From NCBI GenBank assembly GCA_021234155.1, contig JAJEKV010000486.1, positions 110,553 through 174,552 on the forward strand: a stretch of DNA of 64,000 nt. Reading direction: 5' to 3'. The stretch comes from Isoetes taiwanensis. Lineage: Eukaryota > Streptophyta > Lycopodiopsida > Isoetales > Isoetaceae. Position numbers and translations under genes: made by a program. Shown piece by piece: positions 13,096 through 40,578 of this stretch. Within the stretch, counting starts at the first letter, position 1. The number at the start of each line of letters is the position of its first letter. The notes under the pieces are model-generated. The model was not told the origin of the DNA. It saw only the letters and a list, made by a program, of their open reading frames with translations, and searched no databases.

Positions 13096-14644
13096 TCGGA
13101 CGTTCCAAAGACAAAGATACCTGGTCCCGTGATCGATAATCGTGATCGCCTCACACGCCAGACACTTAATTCGACCGACGTAAATGTACCCAACGGATAG
13201 CTGTGTAAGTAGCCCTTTGGGGCAACTTGTTAGATATGTTCATGTTATTAATGTGCACATGTGCACATTAATGTGGGCACACCTTCCATGTTGGCATATT
13301 TTGCCACCTAGCCATTAAAGGCAAGTGGGGCCTTTTCAATTATCCCACATGCCAAAATGGGTAATTGAAAACCCTAGCCTAAACCCCATGTCTATTTAGG
13401 GTAGGAAAACCTAGCTTGCTAGTTTTCGCCCTTAGGGTTTTAGAGCTCGCTTTTTTTCGCCCTGTGAGCCAAAACGCCTCCCGCATTAACGCCCTGCTTA
13501 ATCATGCGCCATTGGCCTCGAATTGATCTCGGACCGCCAGGATGGTTGAACTCAAAGTCGAGGAGCCACCAAGGATCAGATTTGGTCAATTTAATAGCTT
13601 AAACCGCCTTCTAGTCATAGAATCAGTAGGTTTAGACTATTAAATTGCCCATAGCGCCTATCTAGATCTTAGATTCGACACTAACAAAAGAACCTAACTC
13701 TATGATTAGATCTAGTTCTTTAGTTCTTCTGTGGATGTATTTGGATGATGTATCTCTGTGAACTCCTTGTATTGGGAAGGGGGTAGAGGCCCTAAAGCTT
13801 GTAGTTGATGCTCCTAGAGTAGCCTCTCTAGCACACCGTAGATTCGCCTATGCACAAGAACCACACCCGGTTGGGTGAAGGGGCGATGGGCTTAGAAGGA
13901 GGAGAGGTGGTTCGACTCTTTGAACCATCCCTATGGTGTGTTAGTGCTACTGTGGGATCATTGTGACTAGGTCTAATGGCTTACCACCGAAAGTGGGTAA
14001 GGCATGGGCTCGACACCCGGGGTGGGGTTCACCTTCCAATGGGTTCAAGTCAACACGGGCAAAGGGCCCTCTAGTCACCTTTGAGTCAAGATGTAGACCT
14101 CTGGAGGGAGTGATCCCTACCGCCCCATCGAATCGGGAGATGAAACCCGGAATAGCCCCCTTTTGGCTATGCGTCCGGCTGGGCCAAAGTCCCGACACTT
14201 TTCATAGCCTACTCGCAAAGTGTGCAATGGGAGGGGCGGATGGAGTGGACAACCCTATGCCATGTTCTTATGCCACCCAACTCCATTGCCATGAATTCGG
14301 CCCGCAATGAACTCGGAGACCCAAGCCACCACACCCCTTGAGTCCGAGCCTTGGGTAGGATTCCCTATGTGATGTGCCGACCATTGTCTATGCAGATAAA
14401 GTTGATATACCACCCCTCCGGGTGGATGGAGGATTCTCGCTGGTAATCGACATGTATGTTTACGCCCGGCAGCTCAGGTAGGCCCCCGAGGGAGACAGTA
14501 GAATGACACCTTCACTCTTCCCAATCGACTCGCTACGTAAAAAGTTGGATATGTGGAGGGCCCCCGACGCGATGGAGCCGGTGTGGGGAAGAACTCGCTT
14601 GTATACCTGCGGAGAGCAATTATTAACCAGTAGGGGACGCCATG
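13096..14644 (+). repeat. Gypsy-1 5' LTR
   Basis: It matches 33,172-34,727 along its length. The start TCGGACGTTCC corresponds to TGTGACGTTCC of the related Gypsy-2 LTR, so its first bases appear corrupted. The end GGACGCCATGC corresponds to GGACGTCACA of the 3' LTR. It contains a perfect 26-bp palindrome, an AAAACCCTAG box close to GTCTATTTAGGG, and a CTCCTTGTATTGGGAAGGGG block shared with the Gypsy-3 LTR. Confidence 0.88.
13247..13272. promoter_or_regulatory. Perfect 26-bp palindrome in Gypsy-1 5' LTR
   Basis: The 13-base half ATTAATGTGCACA is followed exactly by its reverse complement; centre CATG, two GTGCAC boxes. It is repeated unchanged at 33,327-33,352 in the 3' LTR although surrounding bases differ. 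Likely a protein-binding site in U3; function is inferred. Confidence 0.7.
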
Positions 14645-14645
14645 C

Positions 14646-14660
14646 TGGTATCGTGAGCAA
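14646..14660 (+). promoter_or_regulatory. Primer-binding site of Gypsy-1 (tRNA-Met type, altered)
   Basis: TGGTATCGTGAGCAATG follows the LTR end. It resembles TGGTATCAGAGC, complementary to the 3' end of plant initiator tRNA-Met, with CAG changed to CGTG. Gypsy-3 shows TGGTATCGAGCAATG at the same place. Confidence 0.75.
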
Positions 14661-14839
14661 TGTTCTTGGAGACCAAGAGCAAAGCAATCGACTATGTCCC
14701 AAAGAGTACTAACTTGATAGGATCCTCAAGCCTCAAAAGTGGGAAATTTTTTTCTCATCTTTGTAGTTTATGCTAAGCTAGTAACAATTAAGTGAATTGA
14801 ATTTAACAAGATTAAAAAGAATGAGCCAAAATTTTTCCA

Positions 14840-15260
14840 AGTGAGGTGGTCTCATACCGCTACCGGGTCATTTGAACCAAATTTTAGTTTTGAAGTTTAG
14901 GCGAAAGTCGTGAGACATCGAGCCAAGAACACCAAAACATGATGAATTTGAGAAAAAATAATGTGGTAAGGCTAATTCTAAGGTAGGAATTAGTTAGAAT
15001 AGCATGTTTTAATTACCTAAAAACCCTAGAAATTAGAGAGATTCATACCGCTACCGGTCGCAAAAAAAAAACATTAGTATTGGAACGAGGCGCAAGTCGC
15101 GGAGACCAATAGGTAGAAAAAGTCTGAAATAAGTATAAGTTTTAGCTAAGTTGGTGCCTTAGCATGTTAAAAAGAGCAACTTGAGTTTTGACCTAAAATT
15201 CCCAAGCTATAAATAGATGTAGAACCCCCTCATTTTTCGGCCCAAGCCCTAGAACTGGGC
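14840..15260 (+). promoter_or_regulatory. Promoter-like module A (paired hairpins plus TATA) before the H3 ORF
   Basis: Two ~65-bp units (CTACCGG at 14,860 and 15,051) are flanked by inverted GTCTCA/TGAGAC arms, the second one worn. A CTATAAATAGA TATA box follows at 15,207-15,217, 100 bp before the ATG of the H3-like ORF. The same arrangement recurs before the second ORF. Module function is inferred from the layout. Confidence 0.6.
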
Positions 15261-15316
15261 TTCTTCCCAACTTAGGCGCATCTTTTACGCTTTTATCCGA
15301 TTGACGATCCAGAAGC

Positions 15317-16591
15317 ATGGCCCGAACCAAACAGATCAAGGAAGCTGGCCAGCGAAACTACCCACTTAACGAGGGCGAGATCATCGGAAGATGCTTCGCG
15401 GAGAGGCTCGAGAGGGGGTCGTCACGGACGAGGAGCAAGACACGTCCGATCTGATTGATGTCTTCAACCAAAACAGCGGAGCAGACGAGGCCACATCACC
15501 AACTCCATGGACGAGGAGACGAGGGAGGTGTATGAAGAAATAGAAGGGAGATCCGCAGCATAGAACAAGGTAAGACCATTCCGACGACCCACCGAGATCC
15601 CGAAAGGTGATGAGCAAGGATGTGTCCGGAGCCAAGCAGAGGTAGCGCGTAATCTTAGAAGGTTCATCGAAAGTAATGAAAGCTAAGCAGTAAGAGAAAA
15701 GGAAGACAAAAAAGAGGAAAAGGGAGGAAGAGGAACAAAAAGGTGCAGAAGAGAAGAAGAAGGCGAAGGGAAGTTCGTGGTCGGGCACAAGGAGGACAAA
15801 GGATTGCCCGCCAAGGAAGAGGTCAACCCCAAGATTGTCATCAAGGAGCAAGCAACCCATCTAACCCCCAAACCCCGGACGACTAATTTCCGGGATGAAG
15901 ATTTTAACCCTAATGCCGCAGGTGGGAGCTCTTCTAAGCACCCGTGCAACGAAAGCAGAAGTACGAACCGAGTACCGCACCGGAAAGCAAAACCAAGAAG
16001 ACCAAGTGCAGTGAACCCCCTTGAGTACCCAGATGGGATAGAAAGAAGCAACCAATGACCCGCCCGAAGCCTACGCCACCGATTTGTGGTGAAGATTTAT
16101 GAAAGGAAGATGAGGGAGCACGAGGCATATATGAAGAAGTGGGAGGCCTACGAAGTATTATGAAGAAAAAAGTGGTCGTTCATCGAGGAGGGCTAATTAC
16201 CAACGGGCAACAAACCTTAAAGCCGCCACCACCAAGCCCAAGGTTCCCAAGCCACCACCAAAGAAGAAAGCCGGATAGAAAGGAGGTGGAGAGAAGAGCT
16301 TAAGGAGATTAGACACTTCCAACAGAAGCCACGGTCTCCCTAATTCCCCCAGGCCCCTTCTGCTTTGGGTTGGTGCGAGAAGTGATGCAGCCTCACGTAA
16401 CGGACTTTAGAGTCACTTTTTCACCGGGCAATGCAAGAGGCTACCGAGGCAAAAGATAGTGCAACATTTTGAAGATTCAACAGCCCGCGACTATCCACGC
16501 CTGCGGATAACCTTTAATGCGACAAGACATGAGTCTTGCGACCCGCATAAAGGAGAACGGGCCTTTAGAAACTTTTGTTGTAAATAATTAA
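15317..16591 (+). pseudogene. Retroelement-borne histone H3 variant with long N-terminal tail (Gypsy-1)
   Basis: The ATG opens MARTKQIKEAG; MARTKQ is the start of histone H3. A lysine/glutamate-rich tail of about 325 residues follows across shifted frames (KKRKREEEE, then PPPKKKAG). From 16,298 the H3 fold appears: LKEIRHFQQK (alpha-N), LIPPGPFCFGLVREV and TDFR (alpha-1), AMQEATEA (alpha-2 start), FEDS, TIHA, then LMRQDMSLATRIK (alpha-3). EIRHFQ and LMR.D recall plant CENH3; the loop-1 length looks canonical. It would wrap DNA in nucleosomes. Stops near 15,455 and elsewhere break the frame, but many lie at CAG/CTG-type sites that look like base-calling errors. It lies between PBS and gag, with its own TATA box. 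The family-level call is firm; CENH3 versus H3 is open. Confidence 0.85.
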
Positions 16592-17292
16592 AAATTTTTG
16601 TAATATAGAGCAATTTTGTGTACCTTGATGACATAAACTTGGTTAATTAGAGCAAATTAATAAGTTTTAGCTTTTTATTTCAGTGAAATAGGACATTTGC
16701 AAAGCCGAGACATGATGTCTCACAACCGCTACCGGGTCGCGAAAACTAAAGTTAGTATTGAAGCGAGGCTAAAGCCGTGAGACCTCGCCCAAACTTGACC
16801 AAAACAGCCCAAATCGGCCAAATAAGGGGTCAATTCTCACCGATTTGATGAGCCCATCACCCTTACACCATCGGGTTTACCCAAATTAGATACCTTTTGA
16901 TCGAAATGAGATCGATGTCTCTTACAGCTACCGGTCAAAGAACTAAAAGTTAGTTTTGAAGCGAAAGGCAAAAGCCGTGAGACCTCTTACCATTTCTTCA
17001 CCAGACTTGTCAAAGTCACCTTCAACCTATTGCATAGCATCTTTTAGGTAATCTAGCCTTGTTCAAGCATCCCATATAGTCCTCAAACTCCCATTTTGAC
17101 CTTAGATAGGCTAGAATTACCCAACCCTAGGAAATTTCAAGTCATCCAAAAATTAGGGTTTTCCCCTTTCTATAAATAGACCCCTCACTTCCGGATAGCA
17201 CCCTACAAATCTGCCCTCGCCCTTCTAGCCAATTTCTCAACTCCCCGAGGCCTTTGCAAACTGCTTGTTACCCTCTTCTCCGCAATTAATCA
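16592..17292 (+). promoter_or_regulatory. Promoter-like module B (paired hairpins plus TATA) before ORF2
   Basis: An AT-rich stretch like a 3' untranslated region (16,570-16,690) leads into two hairpin units: GATGTCTCACAACCGCTACC ... GCCGTGAGACCTC (16,714-16,786) and GATGTCTCTTACAGCTACC ... GCCGTGAGACCTC (16,913-16,986), 199 bp apart. CTATAAATAGA follows at 17,170-17,180, 113 bp before the ATG at 17,293. Unit sequence and TATA box match module A, so the module has been duplicated within the element. Confidence 0.65.
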
Positions 17293-18835
17293 ATGGCAAC
17301 TTCTCGATTTCCACAGATGGTACACACAAATATGCCATGTCAGCTGAGGCCGACACACTCAAATCTTCCGTGATCTTGAGGGAAGGAGGTAGATGTCCAA
17401 GCAACCTTGCACGCGACCCCAAATTTTATAGTAGAGTCCCGACCGAAGTTCCAAGCTAGGGTAGAACCAACTAGTGCAACTCCCCTTGTGTAGGCTATTT
17501 TGTTCCTAGAAGGGGCCCCTCGCGTAAAGATTGGACTATGTCCCTAACATCGCCAAATACCTCACAAACAAGGCGCATCGCGACACCAGCCAATGGTCCT
17601 AACTGCAATCAGACCAAGTACTTCTCTTCAACACCGCCTCGCAATCTTTCTCACCCACCGCGCGAGAACACTGGGGGGAAACCTCCATTCCCCATGGACG
17701 GGACCCATTGGCCAGCAAAGTTTAACAACGGCTCCTCACACAAGATGAACAGGAGCACAAGGGAAGGGAAGAAGACTCGGATGAACAGAATCAGAAGAAG
17801 AGGAAGACTATGTCGAGCTCGACCCAGGGGAAGAGCGGCGACAACAAGAGCAGGAGGGCAAGACTTTGAAAGAAGCCGTGAGGACTCTCGTGAGTCGCCA
17901 CCCCCCGGGTTAGGCATCACAAGCCTAGCTCCCATTATTGTCGAAGGTGAGGAGTTTCTCGCTCCTAAGCGACATTCAAAACCTCCCTGAGTGCGAGGAA
18001 AGGGAGTACCGACCTGAAGAGTTCTTCGCACCAACTGGAAATCGGACTTGGACGACTTCATCGTCCGAGGAGAATCCGACTTCCCTCCAAGTAAGGGAAG
18101 CCGACACTTACACGGGAGAGTTTACCTCGACATCCGCTTCACAAAGAACATCGGGCGCATTATGGAGGCGCATAAGGCCGAACAAGCTACCGACGGAGGA
18201 AGAGTTCCTTGCTCTTCGTGGAGCGGATGGGGATCCGCTATGCGACCTCAAACATCCTAACGGCAAGCTCGGTCAGCGTACCTCCCGGGGAGAATACAGC
18301 GAATTCGACCTGGAGGGCTTCCGTTGAATCGAGGACTCTGAGGAGCTCACCGGTGGAGGTTGATGACTTCGAAGGCATTAATGAGCTGGATACCGAGTGG
18401 TCGAGGGACCCGCCTCCGAACGCATTGAGTCACTTTCAGATATTACCGCTGGCGATGGATGGAAGAATATGATTTATCCACGCCAGTTCACCCCGTGAGG
18501 CGAGGAAGGAGTATCGTTGTCGATTGCACTCGTTGATGGGCCGACATGCATGCGGTTACATTCCCTTAATAGAGTATGCAATCCTCGTGAAGAGAGCTGA
18601 TAGCTTTTCGACGTCTTCGACCGCCATACCTTTACGGTAAAAGCAAGACCGCCGCTGGCGGCTTATACCTCCCAATCGAGAATAGAAGATTTGGCAAGAG
18701 CATTACAGGTGGATCTCCGGTAATGTTCTTAGGGAACTTGGGCCATTCAAAGGGGAACAGCCCAAGTGAAAAAGTTCCTGGAGGATAATCCATCTTACCG
18801 GCGACAACGGGAATGATTAGGCCGAGTTATGTCAG
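17293..18835 (+). pseudogene. Accessory ORF2 of Gypsy-1, product not recognised
   Basis: I do not recognise the product. The ATG lies after module B; the reading continues in shifted frames with TLKSSVI near 17,360, an acidic stretch DSDEQNQKKRKTMSS-like region near 17,780-17,830 (low complexity), PIIVEGEEFLA at 17,931, LDDFIVRGESDFP at 18,050, LPTEEEFLAL at 18,183 and EYRCRLHSLMGRHACGYIPL near 18,510. The relative in Gypsy-3 has collinear KPSVF, IVIGGEEYI and IISEEEFQQS with almost the same spacing, so this is a real gene of the lineage. A DNA- or chromatin-related role is only a guess from its partner, the H3-like ORF. Confidence 0.55.
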
Positions 18836-20440
18836 GGGATAGGTTCTATCGCATAAAAATTAAAATTCGGCGATAAAATTTTTCAAATTCGCAATTTGCC
18901 ACCCAAAACCTTTTTTTTTGTTTTTCTTAGTTTTTAGGGTTTTGTTGTTTTTTGATAGGTAGGCGAGGTTAGGTCCTTGATTAGGCCCTCGCTTGCCCCC
19001 CATTGTAAGGGCGAGCGATGGTGAGTGCCTTGTTTGCAATGGTGAGCTTGGCCTATTTTAGAAAAAATAATAATAATAATTTAAGCAAATAATAATTTAA
19101 GAGTAAAGTAAAAAAAAAAAAAAAAAACCAAAAAGAAAAGAAATTGGTTGCCTTCCTTAAACAACAAGCTGAGAGGGCTTTTTTAGGGTTGCGTGTTGCC
19201 AAGAGCATAGGCATGCCCCTTGCGGTATTGCCGCATTTATTTGCGCCATCGCAGGGTGGGTAACAGTGGCGAAGCTTAAAGGCAACTAGGGTCTCCCTTT
19301 AGTAAAGAGTATAACCCTCCTTACCGTTGTTGGCCTTGGTCCTGTGATTGTCGAAGGTGTGCGTTGTACTTTTATTAAGGGTTAGGAGAATGTTTTATCA
19401 ATTCACACCCTAGTTCGATGGTGTTGTTGATGAAAGTCAGACACTAATATAGGAGGCGGGCGTATGTTTTGATAAGCATTCGATTGGTCTCGTCTTTTGA
19501 AAAAGCGTGACCTAGGACAAGATGCAATGCATTTAAAACTTGCTAGCCTTGCATTTTGGAAGTGGGCTGGGCTATAGATCATAAATCGTGTTTTGGTCCT
19601 TTTATTTGTTACCCTATCCTTGGCCTTGCACATACATACTCATGTTAGGGTCTTAGTGTAGGAAGCATAAAATTAGTGTTTTGTTTTGGTTAAAGTGAGT
19701 TGATTTACCCTCATGTGCTAAGCACTAAATTGAAAGTTTTATCTTTGCTTGACTTGTAGGTGTTCTTTGTTGTCGGTTCGCGTATTATCGCGAAGTCGCA
19801 TTTTGCTAGCACGCTAGACAATCCCTTAAAACAAAAGTATGACTTCAGAAGAGAGGCGGAAGTTAACTTGCAACCAAATGTGGCATTAGTGTCTCGGATA
19901 GAGCCTTAACCCGGTAGAGGCATTGGCGTCTCAAACCACAGGCTCTGGCTGCAGCACGAGTCATCTTAGCGGCCTTGCCCGGCGTAAAAAAAGTAGACCA
20001 CAACAAGCATGGTCTACTTTGAGACCAATTTCATGAACTGGTTGTGTATGTCGGTACATTGCAATGCCTCATATTTCGGGATTTGGAATTGATTACTAGC
20101 GGTGAGGAAGGATGGCTAGACTACCATCTTGAGGGCTGGTAAAAGATCTTGAGAGGGCTTTTAAGCCGAATGATGGAGCTAGAGCACGAAAAGAGTGAGC
20201 AAAGAGAGGTATACATGGATAGTGGGTAATATTAGCGCGCACTAGGCAATATGATCCGCGAAGTTGCAAATTTGAGTAGTCATCGGCTTGAGGCTAGAGT
20301 TGAAAGAAAAAGCCGGCCACATGGAATGCGGCGTGGACCAAGAAAATTGAAGAAAGAGGCCCATCAACCCCCATCTTGTTAAGAAAGTGTTGGGCGCCAA
20401 ACCATAAAAGCCAAAGCGTCCCGAGGTGAGCAGAGATAGG
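18836..20440. other. Non-coding stretch inside Gypsy-1
   Basis: The stretch opens with A/T-rich sequence, has short AAT repeats (19,066-19,090) and a poly-A run near 19,110. I find no domain or terminal repeat. Gypsy-3 has only ~200 bp between ORF2 and gag, so everything from about 18.9 to 27.5 kb is probably inserted in Gypsy-1 (or lost from Gypsy-3). Confidence 0.45.
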
Positions 20441-20442
20441 GA

Positions 20443-21405
20443 GTGGGAAGCATTAGAGAAGAAGCGGATGCCAAGACTACTTGGTTTGCCATGGTAGATT
20501 CATCACAAATAATAAGCGGACAACGAATTGGTTACGGTTCATATGGTGCGGTGTATAAGTGCAATATTTTAGGGTCTAGTTTTATTAAGGATGAACCTTA
20601 TTGTGTAAAACTTCAACATAATAATTTTCAGCATAGTCTGAGAACCCAATAAGTTAGTGGAAGCTATCTTTGAAGAACATGAGAGTCGGGGAATGCAAGT
20701 TAGGCGCGGGTGTATATCTGTTGCATTGGTAGCACAACCGGCCTAGAAAGACAAGGCTTAATTTTCCTTTTTGGAATGGAGGTTCGTTGGCAACCTTCTT
20801 TACAAGTCATGGGTCCAATGCCTTTCTTGAGCTTGCATTTAAGTTGGGGGCTGTCCCCGAGTTGAGGCGGACTTGAGGCTGCTTGAGGGCCTTGAAAAGA
20901 AAAGAATTATTTGTTGCCTCTAGGGTTGGGGACTTAGCAATGTCATTGCGTAGCGAGACTCTGAAAGCTCCATCAAGAAAGATATTTGCATATGGACTTG
21001 CATCAGGGCAATATATTGCTCCATTTTGATTATGGAAAGGAGAAGGGATGTATTAATCCTCAGTTTGTATACATTGGCATTTGTGATTGGGGTGAATCGA
21101 GGTTGATCCCGCGAGGCGGTGGAGGTAAAAGCGATGGCATTACAAAGGGTATGGATGGCGAAGGTAAGAAAAGAATTGAGATGGAAAGGGCCGGGCATCC
21201 ATATATGCATGATGATCTTTTTGGTAGTGGCTCGAAGGCGGTGCACGCAAGGGTTGACTTTGATTTACAGGCAGCGTACATTGTCTACTACTTAGGCGAC
21301 TTTGCTAGTAAGCACTCCTACATGGAGTCAATAGGAAACTTGGAGCAACAAGGCAAGCATCGGAGAATGTGCGACTATTTGAAACATGCGTTGAGTCGCC
21401 AATGA
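20443..21405 (+). pseudogene. Divergent protein-kinase-like domain, cargo inside Gypsy-1
   Basis: The first frame has a glycine-rich loop RIGYGSYGAVYKC and a following YCVKLQH (candidate ATP lysine). After about 330 bp of broken sequence comes HMDLHQGNILLHFDYG, equivalent to the catalytic loop HRDLKxxN, and then YIGICDWGESRLIP, where DWG stands for DFG. Order and spacing match a protein kinase fold that would phosphorylate proteins. Residues differ from common plant kinases (HMDLH, DWG). It may be a captured host gene; the downstream coiled coil and zinc finger on the same strand could be part of the same gene. Frames are broken. Confidence 0.55.
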
Positions 21406-22380
21406 GGGACAAAAACGAAAATTTGATATGGCCCGGCTACTTGACACAATGCGGGCGATTTTCATTGCTCTCCAATTCCGTGCGAGGCCACAATTGGAAT
21501 CAGTTGGATTCTTCAACTTGGCGAGGGTGGCGGCGATGCATTAGACCAAGCTGGTCCTAGTCGCCTAAGCGTGCATATTCACTTACATTCAAACATCCTT
21601 GTATTACATAATATTCCAACTAAATTCATTAAACACTTATCGATGCTACATGAAAGATTATTGTCTATGTGTGTTGTGTAGCTTAGTTTTCCTTTTCGTT
21701 GTGTTTTTGTGTTATTTATTCTATGCTTTTTATATGTCATGACTAGCGAACATTATAAAGACAAGAAGTCAAAGCACACCTATACAAGTCGGTCGATTGC
21801 ACCTATAGAAGTCGGCCGGTCAAATTATGTCCCACGAGCGGGGCGAAGAATTGAATCGACACGGAATGTCGGTGCGTCGAGGAAGCAGGAGGATCGGCAT
21901 GGATTTTCGGTTCCCTCTAATTTGAGGACCCCCTCTACTCGATCTCCTTGGCATCAAGGGTTGGAGAAACGAGCTTGAGATGTCAATTTTGCTTTCGGCA
22001 AAATGGAAGCGGCGGCACATGCAAGGCGAATGAGTTTCGCGGCGGCGAGTTAAGAAGGTTGCGTGCGATGGATGAAGTTTCAAAGAGGGATAATTGCACC
22101 ATCCGAGGAGGTGCATAATGTAATTTGTGGCGGGGGCACGGCTATTGTCCAAGTGGGCGGGACTACGACGATGTAATCACAAATTTGGACAAGAATGAGT
22201 TTGAAAGTGAGTGGCCTAGTAGGCGGGGTAAGTATAAGGCTCACGAGTGCAAGAATGCCGTGGTTCGAGCAAAAAGCACTTTCGGCGTCATGTCAAGTGA
22301 AGGGACATTTACCCCACAGCGGTGAGTTTAGTAAGTTTTTTTTGCGACAAGTATACTCTGAGCTTGTGAAGGAAGTGCCG
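21406..22380 (+). other. Broken coding-like sequence between kinase and coiled-coil segments
   Basis: Plus-strand frames with protein-like composition continue (for example VGRSNYVPRAGRRIESTRNV near 21,810 and AHECKNAVVRAKSTFGVMSS near 22,240), but no domain is recognised and stops are frequent. It may link the kinase-like and zinc-finger-like parts into one gene. Confidence 0.35.
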
Positions 22381-22386
22381 TAAATT

Positions 22387-24260: not shown

Positions 24261-26378
24261 TCATTTGTCGGCTGATCCGTGCGAGAATATGGCTTGGTCT
24301 ATATCATCTTCGTCATCAGCGAAGTGGAGTGCGTTGAATGTCTTCATCAACATGAAACTGCGGCATTTATTGCAAGCATCGTCCTCCTTGTCTTGAAGCT
24401 GTCCTCTTCCACTTTGGAATGCATCCATGAAGGAAGCGTAGCTTATCGATTGCGGATGTACCAGCATTGCGATTCAATAGCGCCCGGTTGAGAAGTTGTA
24501 TACAAGTTTATGCGCCTTCTTATGTAATAGCGATTGCGGGTGACCTTTGTGTATGTACTTATAGGCACTCCAATTCCTCTCACTTGCACTATTGGAAGAT
24601 ACCAAAGAGAGGATAGTCATTGCAATTGCACGCAAGGTATCGATAACTTGCCCATGGGCTTGCCACCATGCATATGATTCCATATTTGGTTCCTTCTTAT
24701 GACTCTCGGTCGTCGTGAAGCTCTTCATCGCCCACCTTCCACTTTCGGGTTACGGTATTGATTAACTTCGGCAATGAAAAGCTTGTAGTCCGATTTGTTG
24801 GGATAGAACATTTTTGCAACCTTCTTCAACGACCCCATCACTTCTTTATCGTATGCTGGTCCATATCATTGGTTGTGTGGGTCTAAGGCATCTTGGCGCC
24901 ATGAAGATCCTTTGTATGACTTCTTCCATCGTTCATTGAAGTCTCACGGTAGTCTTTTTGGCGCTTAGCATTGTCAAATGGCGCATTGGGACCATCACGT
25001 TCTAGGAAGGATTGAATGGAGTGCCAACACCTCGGACCTTTCGGTGCTTGCCTTGAAGAATCAAGGGTTTTGATGGCATGACAAAGCGGGTTGCATGCAC
25101 CTCACAACATTTTTACACCTTTCCAAAATGTCTCCGCCCAAGCATTTCTCGAAGGCGGCTGACTTCTTTGTCGGTGTTTAGCGGCATTTTTCCCTTTTAC
25201 GCCTTCTTTCCCAATCAAAAACTACGTATGATTAAAGGTTGAGATAATCCAATCCGCGACACTTCAGCACTCTTTCAAGGCGGATATAATTGGAACCAAA
25301 CCGAGTTTGCCGGGATTCATGAGTGCTAGGCTCTTACGCAATGACTTGTAAATGGCATAAATTGCGGCTTCTTTGTGATGAATTTTACAAGCCGTGGCGC
25401 TTTTGAATGGGATCTTTGAACCCGTGTCTTTGTGAGAACCGGTCCTTGACAATAGGTTGAGGGCAATGGCATTGGCAACTAGTAGCATGCAACCACGGAA
25501 ATTGGCCTCCGATAATTGACCCGCTAGCTTGCAATTAGGCAGCGTTATCCATTACAACTTGAAATATTCTCTTGGTCCAAAACTCTCTATCACGGCCTTT
25601 GTTTTACGAAAAATCCAATCTCCGGTCTTGGTGAGTTTGGTTTCTACGGTTTTCAAAATACTTCACCCCCGGATACGATCATGAAATTAATAAGATGGTC
25701 CTTGTTTACATTGCTCCAACCATGGGTCACTAATGAAGGCGGGCAGCGTCCGGTCTACGACACAACTTCATCTCCACCCTCTCAACCATTTTTCCATGTA
25801 TTTCATCAACCATCTTATTGTTGGCATGCTTGTATGAAGGCGATCTAAAAGCGGTCTGCTTTGGCAACTTCTTGGAAGGCTTCTTTCATTGCTTTATGCT
25901 CGAGAATATGTGGAGGCGACCCGGCATATAAAAATGCCTCTACAACCTTGGTTTGTGTCTTCTTCAATTGCTCGATGTTAAGCAATGATCAACCCTCTGT
26001 TGCCGATGCGTCTTTCCACTATTTCAATTGTCTCTATCATTTCTGTTCTCCGTGCTTGTACCTATTGACCCTAGTCAGCCCCTCGATCGGTATCTTTGTC
26101 CCAGCGGGGTGGTATAGTTATCTTAAATGCCTTACGCGGCCCTGCTCTTGAGTATTCGTAACTTCGTCTTTTCTCATATTATTCTTAGTTTTGCGTATCC
26201 CATCGGTCGAGACAATCTCTCGATGGCATCCTTCGCAAGTCGGCGGATCGCGGTACAAGTTTGCGACACCGGCGTCTCGTTCGTAAGATGTGAGCTCGAA
26301 TTCTTGTTCGCGAGAACCATTTACCGATGTGTATCCACAAAACACACATTCCCACTCATTTTCGCCAAACTCTTTCAC
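24261..26378 (-). pseudogene. hAT transposase, frameshifted
   Basis: The enzyme cuts and pastes the transposon. N-terminal BED finger: WECVFCGYTSVNGS ... CEGCHREIVS (26,118-26,378). Middle: VVMDNAA followed by KLAGQLSEANFRGCMLLVAN (25,430-25,560), the conserved DNA-binding/catalytic block. C-terminus: WWQAHGQVIDTLRAIAMTIL, then SLVSSNSASERNWSAYKYIH and HKKAHKLVYNFS, the classic hAT dimerisation region. DDEDDIDQAIFSHG at 24,265-24,310 is a plausible acidic tail. Frames are broken between blocks, so the copy is inactive or the sequence has errors. Confidence 0.8.
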
Positions 26379-26478
26379 AAACTCCCATTACGGGCCTCTT
26401 TTCCGACCCGCAACTCGGATGCAGCGACCATGTGCGAGTTGCGGTCCCGAATAACCGCCGCGAACACCTTGATCCCTC

Positions 26479-26537
26479 GCACCTCTAGAGGTAGATGCAT
26501 GACCGCTGCACGCACCTCGAGGTAGATGCATGACCGG
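26479..26537. repeat. Short tandem duplication (~32 bp)
   Basis: GCACCTC[TA]GAGGTAGATGCAT followed by GACCG occurs twice in a row (about 26,479 and 26,512), differing by a TA insertion. Confidence 0.7.
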
Positions 26538-27029
26538 TAGCCACCATTGCTTTCGGACCGGTGACAATGTCTCTTAATCGACTCCTTGATTACGAACTAA
26601 AGGAAGGCGTATATATGCAAAGGAGCAAGCTCACAATGCATATGTTCGTCGGCGTTCGTCGCGAAAAGAATCAAAGGGGGTTGGGCGAGGACCCTATAGG
26701 ATATTCTATGGAAGCGAGATGCCAACCCAAGTTTGGAAACCCGGGGCCGGGTAAACTCGCGTTCGGTATCCAGCGTCGGTACGTGACTCAAAAAAGCGAC
26801 ACCTCAAAGGCAAACCGTTTCCCAAGGAGTATTTTGACTCAACTGGCGGTCAGCGTTCGAGGTGAATTCTAGGGCTAATCACGTTTTCTTATATATACTA
26901 TTGCGGTGCCACAAAAGCGGGTCAAGCGATTAGGCGCCAAAATATTTTTTTTGCTTAGTAAATCGGGCAAAAGCTTGACTAGAAAATTTGCGGGCAAAAG
27001 GAACAAAACAGCCAGACGAAAATATTACC

Positions 27030-27240
27030 GGCGCCAGCGAAGATTATGTTTGTCGACGAAGTTCAAATATGACCCCGGCGTCGGCGAAAACTCGCGTCGC
27101 GAAAAAATCGGCGACAGCGGTGGCGTCTTACCCAGACGTCGGCGAAAAAAAAGTGGTTTAGCGTCTGCAGCTATTAATCTTCAGCGTCGCCGAAAAATAT
27201 TTTCAGCGTCTGTGGTTTGTTGCTTTGCGTCTGCGAAATT
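27030..27240. repeat. Subterminal motif cluster GCGTCGGCGAAA-like
   Basis: CGCCAGCGAAG, CGTCGGCGAAAAC, TCGGCGACAG, CGTCGGCGAAAAAAAAG, CGTCGCCGAAAAAT, GCGTCTGTGG and GCGTCTGCGAAATTTT recur within 210 bp. hAT transposases bind short subterminal repeats; this cluster lies on the 5' side of the minus-strand transposase. Confidence 0.6.
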
Positions 27241-27539
27241 TTACAACCAGCCGGGAATTGTTTTAAGTAGGTATTTTTTGCTTTTATACGGCAAATTTGT
27301 GTCAGTATCATTCAATTCATCATTATTCCGGTATAAAGCGTCACGGCGTATTGAACCTATCCCTGGTTGTAATTTCGTATTAATGTAATATAAAAATATA
27401 AATATAATATTCTCTTGCACTATAAATGTTTTGTTGATATATTTTGTGTTCCCCCAACCATGCCAACAAACATAAATAATGCAAGAAAACAAGGAAAACT
27501 AACCATGTAGCTATGAACCACTTGTGTATGCGGCTAGAG

Positions 27540-28424
27540 GCCTAAGCGAGGAGAGCGACAAGCTACTTGGGAACTTATAGAGGAACGAGTCCGCCTGTGC
27601 CACGTCCGCAAGGAACCGCTTTGAAGAATTTGGACAAATGACCCTGAAGAAGAAATATCGCAAATGAGGACGGACCTCTAACGGATAAAGGCTTTGCTAG
27701 CCGCACGCAGGAGCAGTTCGGTGGTAATGCTCAACTGCCGCAAGCATCAGCTCGGAGAACGTGTAGAGACAAGAAGAGGAACAAGAGAGGAAGGTCCCCA
27801 GTTCGGACTCCTCCCGATTCAAGCTCGATCGGACGGGTCCGGGAGGAAGAAGAAGAGCGTAACCAAGACCGAACAGATGGAAGGGCAGAGGAACGCCCGG
27901 ACGGACGAAAAAGGGACACAAGAACCTCGACTACCGGAAGAAGGTAGATTCCCGCAGGGCAATGTATGGAAGGCGGGAAGCTCGAAAGCAATTCTCAGCG
28001 AAAACGGGTCGATGCAGGCAGAGGCTTGGCTCGACGAGATGAGCGAATCACGCAATGCCTATGGTATGAAGGATAAGGATAAAGGCGGGTGGCAAATGGC
28101 CGAACTCGGGAAGGAGCAAAGACGCATTTGGTGGAAGGGCTATGCCAAGGCTCATGGTTTAAGGGGAATGCTTGCGAGGTTCAAGAAGTTTTAAAGCCTT
28201 CAAGCCGCCTATTACATTCCAAGAGAGCACAAGTCGATTATGATGCAAAAGTTTCAAAGCCGTTGCGACAAGGCAACAAGTCAAGATCTGTAAATACACC
28301 TGAGGAATTTATGAGGCTAAGGTCGTATGTGCCAAAGTTAGGTGAGAAGCATGCAAAGCTGGAAAGCTACATTGAAGGTCTAAATGAGGAGATCCGCGAA
28401 GCTTGTAAGGGCAATAAACCCTAG
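27540..28424 (+). pseudogene. gag: Gag of Gypsy-1
   Basis: The capsid protein gene. A charged N-terminal part (SSGSGRVREEEEERNQDR-like in one frame, 27,800-27,900) leads to MQAEAWLDEMSESRNAYGMK at about 28,010, then RIWWKGYAKAHGL at 28,118, the usual gag core around a conserved WW. A frame shift near 28,190 is followed by SVNTPEEFMRLRSYVPKLGE and KHAKLESYIEGLNEEIREAC, ending at the stop at 28,422. The Gypsy-3 counterpart (EAEAWLDEMEEF, YVPRSH) confirms the assignment. The start codon is uncertain. Confidence 0.75.
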
Positions 28425-28679
28425 AATTAAGGTCGGCGCGAGTCCAAGGCAATAAGCTTGCAAGGAAGGACCTTCGGAATAGCGGGCAAAGGCGTGAGAT
28501 TGCAAGATAAAGGCAAAGGCGAATGCGCTTTTAGCCCGAGGACAAAAGCCCCAGACTAGAGCCCCATATAGTGGCAATCAAAGGAAGCAAAGCAGGAGAA
28601 GAAGAGGTGTCTTTCAAAGACAAACAGAAGGGTCAAACTACTCCCAAAGCGGTCGCGATCCTTCTGCGAGCCATGCCCA

Positions 28680-28930
28680 AAGAAAAGAGACAGGAGTGCA
28701 TAGAAAAAGCAAACTTTGCTTCGTAGTGTTTCCAAATGCTTACAGACCGGGATGAACTGCCCATATGTCATGAGTCTGGCTAAGCGTAGTTGGGAGATTG
28801 GGACACCACCGGACGACGACCGAGGGAGGGAGGCCAGCGACTACATTCGTGGTGAGTGTCATATCTTTGCCGCAATAGATACTGAGCAAGCAGAGAGCCA
28901 AGATAAAGTAATTTCCACCGATTAGGAAAA
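28680..28930 (+). pseudogene. Gag zinc knuckle region, degenerate
   Basis: RQECIEKANFAS, then CLQTGMNC and, in another frame, DELPICHESG mark a CCHC knuckle of the form CFxCxxxGHELPxCHE. It is followed by SDYIRGECHIFAAIDTEQAE, matched in Gypsy-3 by QDFIDGECHICANIESGDIE (60,387-60,446), a conserved linker to the protease. Confidence 0.55.
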
Positions 28931-28939
28931 GGCCAAGGC

Positions 28940-29330
28940 CAAGTCATTTGTAGTCCCCGATAGATTCGAAGTAGCCATAACTTTGCATCCCCCGGTAATG
29001 GTTCAAATGTTGAAGTTGAAACCATTAAAGTCAAAGCCAAGGCCCGTTGTCTTAAAGTGGGCAAAGAAGGGGTGGCCGCAGTAAAAGAATCAACTTTGAC
29101 ATCGACTTGCGAGGATTAAGATCCGGATGGGGGCGTAAGTAATGGGCATCGGCAAATACGACTTGATAATAGGTATGGAGTACCTTGGACCAAAGGGGCC
29201 ATTATAGATTATGGAAAAGCTAAGGTGACCTTCCCAACACCCGCCAGCAAGATCATTGAGATAGCAGGTAAAGAAGTTGTTCCCATCATGCGGTGTATGT
29301 CTTCTAAGCGATATTCAAGTGCATCAAGAG
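28940..29330 (+). pseudogene. Aspartic protease of Gypsy-1, C-terminal part
   Basis: GIGKYDLIIGMEYLGPKGAI followed by IDYGKAKVTFP is the conserved end of Ty3/gypsy proteases (DxIIGMDWL type). The active-site D[ST]G upstream is not legible in the present sequence. Confidence 0.65.
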
Positions 29331-29579
29331 TGAGCAAGTGGCATACATCTTCAAGCTTGAGATTAGTGAGCGGAATTGGAAGGAAGCAGAGAAGACAAGA
29401 TGCTCGACAAGTTGCGAAGCAAATAGCTAAGTTGATCACGGAGTTCCACGATCTCTTTCGGATGAGATCAAGCAGCTCCCTCCTTATAGGGAGTCGAGTG
29501 CGAGATAGCACTTTTCGAACCGAGAACAAAGCCAACAAGCAAAGCTCCATATAGAATGACAATGCAGGAGTTGTCTGGT

Positions 29580-30230
29580 TGAAAAAGATTCGAGGGAGCT
29601 TTCGACCTAGGTTTCATTAGACCTAGTGTCCCGTTTGGAGCGCCCATTCTTTTTGTCAAGAAGAAGGATGGATCTTTGAGGATGTGCATAGACTATAGGC
29701 GGTTGAATAAGCACACCATTAAGAACAAGTATGCGCTTCAAGATCGACGACTTGATGGATCAACTTCAAGGAGCAAAGATCTTCTCCAAAATCGACTTAA
29801 AGGTCGGGTTATCATCGAATCGCGGATAAAGGAGGAAGATATCCACAAGACCGCTTTGGGGATGCGGTATGGGCATTATGAGTTCGGTAATGCCTTTCGG
29901 CTTATCAAATGCCCCTTAACGTTCATGAGGCTCATGAACGATATCTTCGGGGAGTTCCGGACACCTTTGTGATTGTTTTCTTTGATGACATTTTGGTGTA
30001 TAGCAGATCCCTTGAAGAGCACGTGCAACACTTGAGAAGGGTGCTAGAGAAGTTGAAGAGGCACGGTTATGCCAAGTTGTCGAAGTGCCACCGCCTTGCA
30101 GAAGGTGGAATACCTTGGTCATGTGATCTCGGAGAAGGCATCTCAACGGACCCCGCCAAGATTGAAGCGTTGATTCAGTGGCGGCGCCAAGAATGTGCAT
30201 GAGGTCAGAAGTTTCTGCCAGCGGTACTCA
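29580..30230 (+). pseudogene. Reverse transcriptase of Gypsy-1
   Basis: Motifs in order: [20 protein letters not shown] and [16 protein letters not shown] (29,637-29,740), [20 protein letters not shown] (29,826-29,885), then in the next frame [20 protein letters not shown] (catalytic FFDD box, 29,966-30,025) and ISTDPAKIEALIQW. The enzyme copies element RNA into cDNA. Frameshifts near 29,745 and 29,900 break it. Confidence 0.85.
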
Positions 30231-30830
30231 CAGGAAGTTCGTGAAGAAGAACTTTGCTAAGATAGCAGCCCCAAGTAATGCACTGACGAGGGCGTAGAAG
30301 GTGAAAAGATTGGGTAGAGCATTGGCACAAGAAAGCCCAAAAGGGGTTTGAATTGTTGAAAGAAGCTCGACGACATTTTCGCCTTGACCTTTGCCGACCC
30401 GGGAGAAAGATAAGCTCGTGAGCAACAGATGCAGTAAGATAGCTACAAAAAGTGCTTATGCAAGAAGAGTTTGTGGTAGCGTGATGATTCCGCAAAGATG
30501 AACGACGCCAAGACGCGCTACCCAACGCACGCATCAGGAATTGCTTTATGCGGTTGTCGTGGCATTAAGAATATGGAGGCACTATCTCTTGGGAAGGAAG
30601 TTCCAATTGATACCCCACCATCGAGCCTCCAATATGTATTCACGCTAAACCACACCTTAACGAGTAAGTAAAGGAGATGGATGGAGTTCCTCAAGAATAT
30701 GACTTTGATATAGTCTACAAGCCGGGAAGCTCAATGTGGTAGCGGATGCTTTCAAGGCATCCCCCTCGACAACTAGAGTGCATTGCAACGCAATTTCGAC
30801 TCTCCGGCGACTTTGGTAAGAAGATTGAAG
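30231..30830 (+). pseudogene. RNase H of Gypsy-1
   Basis: Fragments of the RT thumb/RNase H region are spread over frames: RKFVKKNFAKIA (30,233), LTFADPG (30,384), ELLYAVVVALRIWRHYLLGR followed by KFQL (30,541-30,610) and EYDFDIVYKPG near 30,700. The same blocks are seen in the better-preserved Gypsy-2 copies. Confidence 0.7.
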
Positions 30831-30859
30831 AGTCCTTGCCAACGGATGTGGATTTCGGG

Positions 30860-31960
30860 GAAGTATGGGCAAGCCCTCTCTAAGGAGGCTAGAACAGATA
30901 AAGAGCGGGAGGCCTTCAAGCATTATAAGAAGGAAGGCAACCTCGTTATACCATAAGAACAAGCAGCGCATCTCAATCATCGGGTGTAAGGAAGTTGATC
31001 CTCCATGACACGCACAATACCCCAATAGGCGGCCATGCGGGATTCATGAAAACATATTTCAAAGTCTTGCAGCAAATTATCATTGACCAGGAATGAAGAA
31101 GCAAATAGCTCGCTACATCAAGGAATGTCACTATGCCAGCCAGACGAAAGCAAAGCAATTCCTGTGGGCATTAGAGCCATTAGCGGTGCCAGCTAAGTGG
31201 GAGGTAATCAGCATGGATTTCATCCACGGGACTCCCAAACAGCGAGGAGGCAAGGATGCCTTGATGGTAGTGGTCGACAAGTTGTCGAAGATGGCACATT
31301 TTGTGCCTTGCGGGACCACGGATCTGACTATGGATAAAGAAAGCTCTTCACCAAAGAGATCTTCGGGCTTCATGGCATGCCAAAGGGAGATTATCTCCGC
31401 GAGGGATCGAAGTTCATGAGTGCCTTTTGGCAAGAGACGATTGGACCAAGCTATCCATGAGCATCTACGTATCATCCTCGAAACGGTGACTGACGGAGGC
31501 GGACCAAGGGGGATCTTAGAAGACATGCTACGAAACTATGTTTGGAATAAGCAAAGTATGTGGGAAGAATTTATTCACTTGGTGGAGTTTGCATACAATA
31601 GCACCAAGCAGGAATCATCCCAAATGTATGGATTTATGATCAATTACGACTACGATTGCCTAACTCAGACACTTGGCACAACCCCATGTCAAAAGTGGAA
31701 GTTTCGCAGCCAGATGTTGGCGATATGCAGCAGCTTGTGGAAGAGGTTCGAGGGTATCACGCTAGCAGCAAGAAGTCGACAAAAAAGAGCATCGCCGACA
31801 AGCATCGAAACAGTCGAGAGAGTTCAAAGTTGGAGATGATGTATGGCTCAAGATCAAGGTGAAGCGGAGGCAAAGCTCGGGATCGGGGAATTGCAAGAAG
31901 CTTGCTCCAAGGTGGGCTGGACCCTTCCGAATAGTCGAGAGTAGGTAATCAAGCCTACAA
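30860..31960 (+). pseudogene. Integrase core of Gypsy-1
   Basis: HDTHNTPIGGHAGFMKTYFK (31,009-31,065) and ARYIKECH mark the HHCC zinc domain. KWEVISMDFIHGTPK (31,198-31,240) holds the first catalytic aspartate, followed by DALMVVVDKLSKMAHFVPCG. The second aspartate region is broken near 31,390. RNYVWNKQSMWEEFIHLVEF and AYNSTKQESSQM (31,536-31,625) are the post-core helices. The C-terminal LAPRWAGPFRIVES and AYKLDLPTHLKIHKVFHVVF (31,900-32,010) are the GPF/Y-type module. Confidence 0.8.
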
Positions 31961-32029
31961 GCTAGACTTGCCAACACACCTAAAGATTCATAAGGTCTTC
32001 CATGTGGTCTTCCATCCAAATCCGGCGAA

Positions 32030-32307
32030 GCCTTGGACCTCCAACGTTGTTGGAAATAGAGGAGCAGCGGTGGAAATAGTTCGAGAAAATGATTCTTGAT
32101 AAAGCTTTCAAGAAGACAAGGAGGTCGGAGTTCCTCAATACTTGGTCAAGTGGAAACACTCTGCCGGTGGAAGACGCGACATGGGTACTTAAGAAGGATT
32201 TAGTAAAGCAAAGTACCCACACGTTTATGGAGCAATGGGACGGCAAGGTCATCTCCGAAGAAATCGGCTCGAGGCATGTCGATTTGTGTAGGTTAATTCT
32301 TGGGTAG
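32030..32307 (+). pseudogene. Integrase C-terminal chromodomain of Gypsy-1
   Basis: EMILDKAFKKTRRSEFLNTW in one frame and VPQYLVKWKHSA in the next, then EDATWVLKKDLVKQ and HVYGAMG, match the chromodomain pattern (beta strands ending in YLVKW, then the E.TW motif and a helix). Chromodomains read methylated lysines on histone H3 tails and steer chromovirus integration. A short frameshift splits it at about 32,125. Gypsy-3 has the same domain. Confidence 0.82.
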
Positions 32308-33171
32308 TTAGGATTAATCACGCATGCCACCTATGCTTGGTATGGGTCGCATGCGTTATTGCGATGATGAGACCACTACGGTGATCTCTAGGGCGTGGGT
32401 GTAATGTCAACGTAGGCATGACCGCGTTTTCGCTTAGGCAAGAAAGTGGAAGGTAGATTAGAAAGTCTACTGTCCCACGGAAGTAGGCGACCTCGGAAGA
32501 AAGGAGGTCATTAAGGAATGCACCGATAGGAAAAGCACCTCTAGCCCCATATATGCTTTGATAGGAGGAATGGGCCTTCCGCGCCCCATATCTGGGAAGG
32601 ACCTATCCTCCCATTTGGGCAACTAGGGTGTAGGCATGAGCGGCATATAGGCATATAGGGCTATCTCCACGACCATAATGGAAGATTCACCCTCTTCCAC
32701 GCGGGAGATTAGCCATGCATCCATGTAGATGGGTGGGGTGGTCACCATATAACAAAAAATTTATTAAATAATTAAAATGGTACTAACGTAGTATATCGAC
32801 TGCGAGGCCAATAGAAGCTCGGGAGGGCAAGGAGGTCGAAGCTCACGAAGACTTGCAACACAAATTTTGTTGGAATGTGTCATAAAAGGAGCGAAGAGTA
32901 CCTCGAACAATAATTTGTTGAAATTTTGTATAACTTAATGTCATAATAAGCGAGATAGCGAATACCTTGTTTAATGATGTTATGAATTGTTAAGTATTCC
33001 ATAGTATGATGACGTGATAATGTTTTAAAAAATATTACCTTAGGGTAATCTGGTAAATGTATAACTATTATATTGTATGCATCACGTTGATTGCGTGCAT
33101 TTGATTAGGAAGATCCCAAGGTGGGGAGACCCACGATCTTTGGGACAAACATCATTTCAAGGTGGGGAGAA
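32308..33171 (+). other. 3' untranslated region of Gypsy-1, ending in a polypurine tract
   Basis: No gene recognised. A palindrome-rich patch with ACCTATGCTTGGTATGGGTCG near 32,330 follows pol. The stretch ends with AAGGTGGGGAGA (33,159-33,170), a typical plus-strand primer directly before the 3' LTR. An earlier AAGGTGGGGAGA copy lies at 33,117-33,128. Confidence 0.6.
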
Positions 33172-34727
33172 TGTGGCGTTTCGGCCACGATTATACGGTC
33201 CCGGGGCGTATCTTGCATTTGCCAAATCGCCAGCGTACCATTTCCCCTCGACCGTGCGGCGGTAATGCCAAGCGGATAGCGGGTAAGTAGCCCTTGGGGG
33301 CAACTTGTTAGATATGTTCACATGTTATTAATGTGCACATGTGCACATTAATGTGGGCACACCTTTCCATGTTGGCATATTTTGCCACCTAGCCATTAAA
33401 GGCAAGTGGGGCCTTTTCAATTATCCCACATGCCAAAATGGGTAATTGAAAACCCTAGCCTAAACCCCATGTCTATTTAGGGTAGGAAAACCCTAGCTTG
33501 CTAGTTTTAGGTCCTTAGGGTTTTAGAGCTGGGTTTTGGCTGCCCCAGAGCCAAAACCGCCTCCCATTAACGCCCAAGCTAATTGCGCCATCGGGTTCCC
33601 CAATCGGATCAGCCCAGCAGGATGGTTGAACTCAGTCGAGGAGCCACTCAAGGATCAGGTATTTGGTCAATTTAATAGCTTAAACCGTCTTCTAGTCATA
33701 GAATCGAGGGTTTAGACTATTAAATTGCCCATAAACTATCTAGATCTTAGATCTCGGACACTAACTAAAGAACCTAACTCTATGATTAGATCTAGTTCTT
33801 TAATTCTTCTGTGATGTATTTGGATGATGTATCTCTGTGAACTCCTTGTATTGGGAAGGGGGGTAGAGGCCCTAAAGCTTGTAGTTGATGCTCCTAGAGT
33901 AGCCTCTCTAGCACAATCCGTAGATTCTAGGCAGGTGCACAAGAACCACACACGGTTGTGGGTGAAGGGGCGGGCGGCTTAGAAGGAGGTTAGGTGTTCG
34001 ACTCTTGAACGATCCCTATGGTGTGTTAGTGCTACCAGGGATCATTGTGACTAGGTCTAATGGCTTACCACTGAGTGCGGGTAAGGCATGGGCTCGACAC
34101 CCGTGGGGTGGGGTTCACCTTCCAATGGGTTCAAGTCGAATCAGGCGGTGGCCCTCTAGTCACCTTGAGTCAAGATGTAGACCCTCACGGAGGGAGTGAT
34201 CCCTACCTGCCCCATCGGGAATCGGGGAGATGAAACCGTGAATAGCCCTTTTGGCTATCGTATCCGGGCGGCTGATCGAAGTCCCCGACACTTTTTCAGA
34301 CCTACTCGCAGAAAAAAGGAGGGGCGGATGGAGTGGACAACCCTATGCCATGTTCTTATGCCAGACCAACTCCATTGCCATGAATTTCGCCTGTGAATGA
34401 ACTCCGGAGACCCAAGCCGGGCCACTCCCTTGAGTCCGAGCCTTGGGTAGGATTCCCTATGTGATGTCCCGCACCATTGTCTATGCAGATAGTTGATATA
34501 CCACCCCTCCGGGTGGATGGAGGATTCTCGCTGGTAAATGACATGTATGTTTACGCTTCCAAACTAGGTAGGCCCCCGAGGGAGGTAGAATGACACCTTC
34601 ACTCTTCCCATTGGGACTCTGCGGGTGCAAATGATATGTGGAGGGCCCTCGTGACGATGGAGTGGTGGGGGGGAAGAACTCTGTTTGTATACGGTGAGAG
34701 CACCGTACACGAGTAGGGGACGTCACA
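33172..34727 (+). repeat. Gypsy-1 3' LTR
   Basis: The sequence starts TGTGGCGTTTCGG after the polypurine tract and ends GGACGTCACA, so TGTG(A)CG and CGTCACA form the terminal inverted repeat. It matches the 5' LTR over its length and carries the same palindrome at 33,327-33,352. The Copia-1 LTR resumes at 34,728. Confidence 0.9.
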
Positions 34728-35870: not shown

Positions 35871-35875
35871 ATGCT

Positions 35876-39211: not shown

Positions 39212-39310
39212 TACTTAATATCATGTCTACATATTTTGGACAAAACTCAAATCGATTTCCAACTCTTTTTGCATATAATACAATATTTCCATTATTATGT
39301 ACGATGCACA

Positions 39311-40576: not shown

Positions 40577-40578
40577 AG

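Follow-up and report, generated by a model that had tools for sequence, protein, structure and literature searches.

Mobile elements that carry a histone gene are known from fungi, in which hAT DNA transposons of Pyrenophora tritici-repentis (H3L; PMC3538342) and of Pseudocercospora fijiensis and its relatives (PMC6710886) carry and multiply a gene for histone H3. Many of the hAT-borne copies in P. tritici-repentis look functional (PMC3538342), and those in P. fijiensis are described as inactivated by repeat-induced point mutation (RIP; PMC6710886). Among plant long terminal repeat (LTR) retrotransposons, Ty3/gypsy elements of the Ogre, Retand and Athila groups have an additional 5′ open reading frame (ORF) ahead of gag-pol; such extra ORFs occur in 314 groups, and about one fifth of the proteins they encode have known domains (PMC6317226). 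The domains given for these elements, which are non-chromoviruses, are the plant mobile domain, Transposase_28 and Athila ORF-1; the parts of that source covered here name no histone, its supplementary table of extra ORFs falling outside this scope, where a case may have gone unnoticed (PMC6317226). Plant chromoviruses are described with gag-pol, and in the open-licence literature we found neither a chromovirus described with a histone gene nor any other LTR retrotransposon with one. The word histone is likewise missing from the main text of a review (PMC13317346) and of the genome papers on Isoetes sinensis (PMC10541799) and I. taiwanensis (PMC8566536). Here we describe an H3-like gene carried by Ty3/gypsy chromoviruses of I. 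taiwanensis. The window analyzed is a stretch of 64,000 nucleotides (GenBank assembly GCA_021234155.1, contig JAJEKV010000486.1, positions 110,553 to 174,552 of the forward strand) that holds two such elements, E1 (about 13096-34727) and E2 (from 53214 past the window end, where the contig stops), each with the gene between the primer-binding site (PBS) and gag.

A sequence-only reading of the window had claimed that an ORF starting with MARTKQ and ending in an H3 fold lies between the PBS and gag of E1. This E1 gene (15317-16591, on the plus strand, as are all the features of E1 and E2 given with coordinates below unless stated otherwise) begins with an ATG at 15317 and continues through a lysine- and glutamate-rich (K/E-rich) linker into H3-fold pieces at about 16278-16588, which are scattered over three frames, the gene having several frame breaks in the present assembly. 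Its counterpart in E2 (55426-56525), also frame-broken, starts with MARTKQTYRKTG and leads through a basic linker to an H3 fold at 56234-56525. None of the six single-frame translations of E1 matches the Pfam Histone family. When the folds were stitched over the frame breaks, PF00125 matched E2 above the cut-off of 26.4 bits (E=4.5e-6, 27.4 bits) and E1 below it (E=0.0064, 17.2 bits); the best PDB sequence match of both stitched folds was histone H3 (6e-9 for E1, 4.7e-10 for E2). Because stitching by eye can inflate matches, we scanned the whole window on both strands by frameshift-aware alignment of histone sequences. With an H3 query, the two top places end at 56503 (E2, score 136) and 16563 (E1, score 125), the next place scoring 57, whereas H4, H2A and H2B queries gave no such peak in the window (best scores 53, 48 and 63, respectively). 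In controls, the highest score was 60 among 60 Markov-shuffled sequences and 70 among 60 shuffled versions of the H3 query run on the real window. The fold in E1 and E2 is thus nearer to H3 than to H4, H2A or H2B, as the peaks arise from H3-type queries only, and the scan peak together with the shuffle controls bears out the claimed ORF. The accompanying statement that the gene follows the domain order of H3 stands only in part: the MARTKQ start and the H3 fold are there, but about 200-300 residues lie between them, so that the order is not that of plain H3.

A PF00125 search of the same assembly (1,658,258,908 bases, 1,110 contigs) returned 8,705 first-look candidates, of which 150 were scored, all of them above the cut-off. 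Fifteen of the scored candidates span the whole profile, at places of ordinary H3 genes, and the eight of these 15 that we examined (L001-L008 in our numbering of loci) all encode plain 136-residue H3; of the remaining 135, 55 sit in open frames that reach 300 codons or more, 36 of them in frames of 400 or more. Twenty element loci were then followed, not drawn at random: 17 were chosen for their long frames and three have short frames. Of the 20, 17 have a frame open from stop to stop over 396-494 codons, which ends in the H3 fold or, in L018, shortly after it. Downstream of the gene, 18 of the 20 have gag, and upstream 17 have a PBS (13 with the exact TGGTATCAGAGC, which we take to be complementary to initiator tRNA-Met, and four with an altered version); a histone fold between LTR and gag, which the sequence-only reading had suggested looking for elsewhere, is therefore found repeatedly in the same genome. 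At one place, locus L017 and its downstream piece L029 make up a complete element of about 11.2 kb (C1019:5367715-5378883), bounded by LTRs of the form TGTGACG...CGTCACA (1,786 aligned columns with 48 mismatches and 131 gap columns), with a target-site duplication (TSD) CAATC on both sides and the PBS TGGTATCAGAGCC. Its H3 frame matches PF00125 with an E-value of 1.9e-43 (two other open ORFs reach 2.1e-40 and 2.6e-41), and behind it follow gag (9.8e-15), protease, reverse transcriptase (RT; 7.3e-39), RNase H, integrase and a chromodomain (6.1e-8, above the cut-off), with a stop between the RT and RNase H frames. The chromodomain of L028 is likewise above the cut-off (5e-9). LTRs, a tRNA-Met-type PBS, gag, protease, RT, RNase H, integrase and chromodomain are what the element has in common with described plant chromoviruses; a Tat/Ogre-type, non-chromoviral identity, which we also considered, is ruled out by the chromodomain in L017. 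These observations show that a Ty3/gypsy chromovirus lineage in the I. taiwanensis genome carries an H3 gene between PBS and gag-pol. The identification of E1 as a chromovirus with its own H3 variant is thus supported by two elements in the window, by the open H3 frames at 17 of 20 genomic loci and by one complete element.

The genes come in two architectures. In the tail type, to which E1, E2 and many other copies belong, the H3 N-terminus MARTKQT is followed by a long K/E-rich linker and the H3 fold. The domain type has a conserved N-terminal domain, about 300 residues long, ahead of a basic linker and the H3 fold, and its protein starts with MPRFK, MSRFK, METPK, MEPVK, MEEVK or MANTK. An alignment of 15 sequences of this N-terminal domain has 33 invariant columns, and searches of Pfam and NCBIfam (in which the hits were weak histone-like ones within the fold and others at chance level) and of PDB sequences (best E 0.72) recovered no relative of it. 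Neither E1 nor E2 clearly shows this domain: of six comparisons, one beat all 10 shuffles (L017 against E1, 59 versus a shuffle maximum of 51, in a K/E-rich stretch). The MARTKQT-coding pattern occurs 2,727 times in the genome (1,333 + 1,394), and the reversed control gave 0; this is likely an undercount, since CAG is often garbled, as detailed below. We examined the first 20 MARTKQT loci in contig order: an H3 fold lies within 2.5 kb downstream, in some frame, at 17 (all except L037, L041 and L044), a PBS lies upstream at 12, and in L034 the N-terminal half of an E1-like ORF is open over 279 codons. ARKS follows MARTKQT in 19 of the 2,727 cases (all with a TCN serine codon, 0 with AGY), 15 of which are ordinary host H3 genes by their coordinates; with only 19 continuing in this way, about 2,700 starts retain the K4 end without ARKS. 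Among the 15 domain-type ORFs, ARKS is found in one (L019). Judged by the ARTKQTARKS tail, the element protein is an H3-derived variant and not an ordinary H3.

Taken with these counts, the alternative that the H3 fold is a chance match, an artefact of stitching or the product of a chimeric assembly carries next to no probability. It could appeal to the many frame breaks in E1 and E2 and to the lack of any single E1 frame that matches Pfam Histone; it is refuted by the shuffle controls, by E2, by open copies on many contigs, and by the excess of MARTKQT starts over a control of none, with the fold downstream of most of those first examined. A chimeric assembly in particular, which had been named as what could overturn the original claim, is ruled out, as E2 and loci on many other contigs carry the gene.

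Selection on the gene was assessed from the ratio of nonsynonymous to synonymous substitution rates (dN/dS), computed per region by the Nei-Gojobori method for 15 open ORFs with a placed start (L009-L022 and L025; L023 and L024 were left out), using pairs with 0.05<dS<1.5, the other pairs lying outside this range and several being saturated. The median dN/dS is 0.030 for the H3 fold (range 0-0.11; 42 of 105 pairs), 0.095 for the basic linker (range 0-0.27; 37 pairs) and 0.150 for the N-terminal domain (range 0.07-0.25; 24 pairs). In three pairs dN is 0.055-0.088 for the gag-pol frame as against 0.019-0.029 for the fold. The domain-type fold is under strong purifying selection. At 63 of 92 fold positions all 15 copies have the residue of the host canonical H3, including R72, R83, C110, H113, T118, D123, L126 and R129, residues that presumably contact DNA, H4 and the second H3; at five positions (S86, S87, E105, T107 and A135) the host residue is missing from all 15. 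Apart from these five lost residues, the element proteins differ from host H3 in their 200-300-residue N-terminal extension or linker and in the mostly absent ARKS.

In a tree of 105 columns, which does not include E1 and E2, the element sequences form one group among canonical H3s with weak support (70/73), three plant centromeric H3 (CENH3) sequences stand apart (99/95), and human CENP-A sits on a long branch of unsure place. The source of the gene was accordingly a canonical H3, and a single capture is favored, though not proven. Centromeric H3 was considered as a source and rejected: CENH3 shares with the element proteins the MARTK start, a long variable N-terminal region and a few fold residues of E1 and E2 (LKEIRHF, LM), but canonical H3 fits both elements better (E1 scores 119 with H3.1 and 123 with H3.3 versus 82-106 with CENH3/CENP-A, and E2 124 and 122 versus 73-89), and the tree separates the plant CENH3s. 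The comparison with the fungal hAT elements can now be made more exactly. Those are DNA transposons with terminal inverted repeats, and the protein they captured is, in the accounts cited above, plain H3 or a part of it; the L017/L029 element is bounded by LTRs, has gag-pol and bears the H3 fold behind a new N-terminal domain.

The frame breaks of E1 and E2 call for an explanation of their own. The two LTRs of E1 (5′ LTR 13096-14644, its left end approximate; 3′ LTR 33171-34727) match at 86.5% over 13190-14642 and 33268-34725, and the differences between them come in bursts; one run of 127 columns has no event at all, and overall there are 107 transitions, 111 transversions and 45 insertion or deletion events. 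The differences cluster near CG-containing triplets and near CAG/CTG, 34 of 42 CAG/CTG triplets being near one as against 36% of all triplets. CAG/CTG occurs at 0.39 of expectation in E1 and 0.45 in E2; the corresponding values of the 20 loci are 0.69-0.96, and eight host H3 loci have 0.91. The PBS of E1 (TGGTATCGTGAGC, 14646-14658, directly after the 5′ LTR) and that of E2 (TGGTATCGAGC, 54852-54862) deviate from the usual TGGTATCAGAGC at CAG. The published I. taiwanensis assembly, apparently the one analyzed here, was made from Oxford Nanopore Technologies (ONT) reads with polishing and amounts to 1658.30 Mb, divided among 204 scaffolds and 909 contigs (PMC8566536). On account of the bursts near CG and CAG/CTG, the equal share of transversions, the CAG/CTG depletion, the PBS deviation at CAG and the use of ONT reads, we infer that the frame breaks are nanopore base-calling errors at CG and CHG sites that carry methylation. 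Real decay may have contributed, but the pattern of differences does not support it as the main cause. Over the whole window, CAG/CTG is the most depleted triplet (0.54 of expectation), most strongly in 13096-34727 and 53214-64000.

What might such a protein do for the element? The sequence-only reading had ventured that the element could load its variant onto its own copies or onto chromatin that it targets. We propose, with a probability of roughly 0.5 for the proposal as a whole, that it is a nucleosomal H3 variant by which the element counters its own silencing. The element H3 would pair with host H4 and enter host nucleosomes, serving there as a chromatin anchor that displays the element-specific N-terminal part; such nucleosomes, on or near element DNA, would be refractory to silencing by way of H3K9 and H3K27. 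That the MARTKQT copies keep the K4 end, and that nearly all of them lack ARKS (the motif that surrounds K9 and K27 in an ordinary H3), would favor transcription of the element. Because 15 of 15 copies retain the residues contacting DNA, H4 and the second H3, pairing with host H4 and entry into nucleosomes are the probable reason why the fold is kept so strictly. The further step, that nucleosomes with the element H3 resist H3K9/H3K27 silencing, is put forward more tentatively. With an intact H3 under selection, the elements may therefore alter the chromatin that normally silences them. A mobile-element protein with such an anti-silencing role is known in VANC of the Arabidopsis VANDAL transposons (PMC5735166, PMC10398659); VANC proteins are sequence-specific proteins of other transposons, not histones. 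Several points weigh against the anti-silencing proposal. It draws throughout on the genome sequence, and the dN/dS values cover open domain-type ORFs, from loci mostly chosen for long frames. E1 and E2 are frame-broken in the present assembly, and so are most of the 20 MARTKQT loci. ARK continues 1,051 of the 2,727 MARTKQT starts, so that K9 itself survives in many of them and a simple loss-of-K9 account is weakened; the absence of ARKS may moreover have been inherited from one founder and not selected, and MARTKQT is itself lost from the domain type.

The main rival to this proposal places the variant in nucleosomes as well and makes it an integration tether: its N-terminal part or linker would bind Gag or the integrase chromodomain and mark landing sites; the chromodomain would then read the H3 of the element itself in place of host H3K9me. 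Consistent with this, the elements have a chromodomain, that of L017 lacks aromatics at two of the three cage positions in a by-eye reading, and the N-terminal domain is conserved at its 33 invariant columns; plant type II chromodomains in general are reported to have no methyl-lysine cage and no known partner (PMC6317226). This support comes from sequence, and we regard a tether as somewhat unlikely. Anti-silencing and targeting could also be joined in a self-made chromatin, in which the element's own H3, with the K4 end (ARTKQT, used by activating readers) and without ARKS, would be poorly handled by the silencing machinery and be bound by the element's own chromodomain, a single gene providing both protection and choice of integration site; this combination appears more doubtful still. 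Next among the rivals stands packaging, by which the H3-like protein would not be nucleosomal and would instead coat or condense the cDNA or RNA of the element, within the particle or the pre-integration complex. The position of the gene ahead of gag and the basic linker in both types, as in a nucleic-acid-binding protein, would suit such a role; packaging alone leaves unexplained why the contact residues for H4 and for the second H3 are conserved, and the Gag of L017 has a zinc knuckle of its own (a weak match, 0.0051, below the cut-off), which together make it quite improbable. The least likely rival holds the gene to be a passive passenger, a host H3 captured by transduplication that has no function for the element. 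Capture of host genes is common in transposable elements, most fungal hAT copies of H3 were inactivated in one case (PMC6710886), and the extra ORFs of plant LTR elements are described as highly divergent, with their function an open question (PMC6317226). A fold with a median dN/dS of 0.03 across deeply diverged copies, and two architectures with the gene at the same place, speak against a passenger, and on the selection test we hold it to be very unlikely.

The common view of retrotransposons is that chromatin acts on them; the present lineage has a core histone variant of its own, the fold of which is strictly selected. Should the protein enter nucleosomes, the elements would be able to write chromatin as well as read it, and the ligand of plant type II chromodomains would become directly testable. 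The domain-type protein, with its H3 fold behind a new conserved domain of about 300 residues, would be an unusual kind of histone. In wider searches, the stitched E1 and E2 queries found no match in a protein database, a result of low weight as the plant content of the database had no positive control, and scans of viral contigs showed no relative.

Several copies have a second conserved ORF of about 440-500 codons (ORF2; e.g., L021:5075-6520) between the H3 gene and gag, which L017 lacks. ORF2 has no match in Pfam or NCBIfam. Candidate regions for it lie at 17293-18860 in E1 and 57297-58830 in E2 (limits approximate), that of E1 without a Pfam match in any frame. The E1 region beats all 10 shuffles against the ORF2 of both L014 (81 against a shuffle maximum of 60) and L021 (64 against 59); the E2 region does so against L021 (90 against 72) and not against L014 (58 against 61). 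With three of the four comparisons beating all 10 shuffles, a second ORF ahead of gag seems to be present in E1 as well as in E2. Two hairpin repeats of E2 (56714-57010), with RNA folding z-scores of -3.4 and -6.0, separate its H3 gene from ORF2. Hairpin-like repeated stretches sit ahead of the upstream ORFs in both elements, and the E1 counterparts (14848-15105 and 16714-16992) fold far less clearly (z -2.5, -0.7, -0.4 and +0.5). Rfam, at gathering level, and ARAGORN found nothing. At L011 (381-958), an E2-like PBS is shortly followed by a diverged H3 fold resembling that of E1, represented by its C-terminal part, and these pieces lie upstream of a domain-type H3 gene at the same locus.

Downstream, the gag region of E1 (27640-28430, limits approximate) is recognized by its tblastx likeness to that of E2 and by a fragment scan (134 versus a shuffle maximum of 58); the E1-versus-E2 tblastx comparison recovered gag and not the H3 gene. 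The frame-broken E1 pol (28500-31900, limits approximate) covers protease, RT, RNase H, integrase and an SH3-like domain, with matches in single frames all below the cut-off (RVT_1 1.4e-5, RT_RNaseH 6.4e-4, Integrase_H2C2 0.013, SH3_Tf2-1 7.9e-6), and its nucleotides match L017 pol at 63.5%. A possible chromodomain region follows at 32045-32250 (weak: Chromo E=0.055, below the cut-off). E1 is an insertion, since two further copies of the repeat that it interrupts (40580-41169 and 47846-48430) run through the window unbroken; a TSD was not established, about 45 bases of the left flank being without alignment. The interrupted repeat may be the LTR of a neighboring copia-type element. An open copia-type pol frame, recognized by eye on the minus strand at 35003-35944, adjoins E1. 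Between ORF2 and gag, E1 has about 8.5 kb (18900-27600) with no counterpart in E2, in which there are a weak protein-kinase match (E=0.017, below the cut-off) and, in a by-eye reading of the minus strand, a piece that resembles a hAT transposase (24474-24749).

In E2, the 5′ LTR (53214-54850) has the ends TGTGAC...GTCACA, read directly, and its 3′ partner lies beyond the contig end. Its gag region (59150-60330) was placed by tblastx and the fragment scan, and its frame-broken pol region (60400-63550; the limits of both regions are approximate) gave single-frame matches that are all below the cut-off (protease-type 9.3e-4, RT_RNaseH_2 1.7e-4, SH3_Tf2-1 2e-5). A weak chromodomain match at 63590-63780, stitched from two frames, is also below the cut-off (Chromo 7.2e-4). 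E1 and E2 are related but diverged, with a nucleotide identity of 65-68% over gag-pol and pol (68% for pol). Two near-identical tandem 7.2-kb repeats (38799-45942 and 46046-53212; 94.6%) have gypsy pol sequence at their ends, and E2 begins directly behind the second of them.

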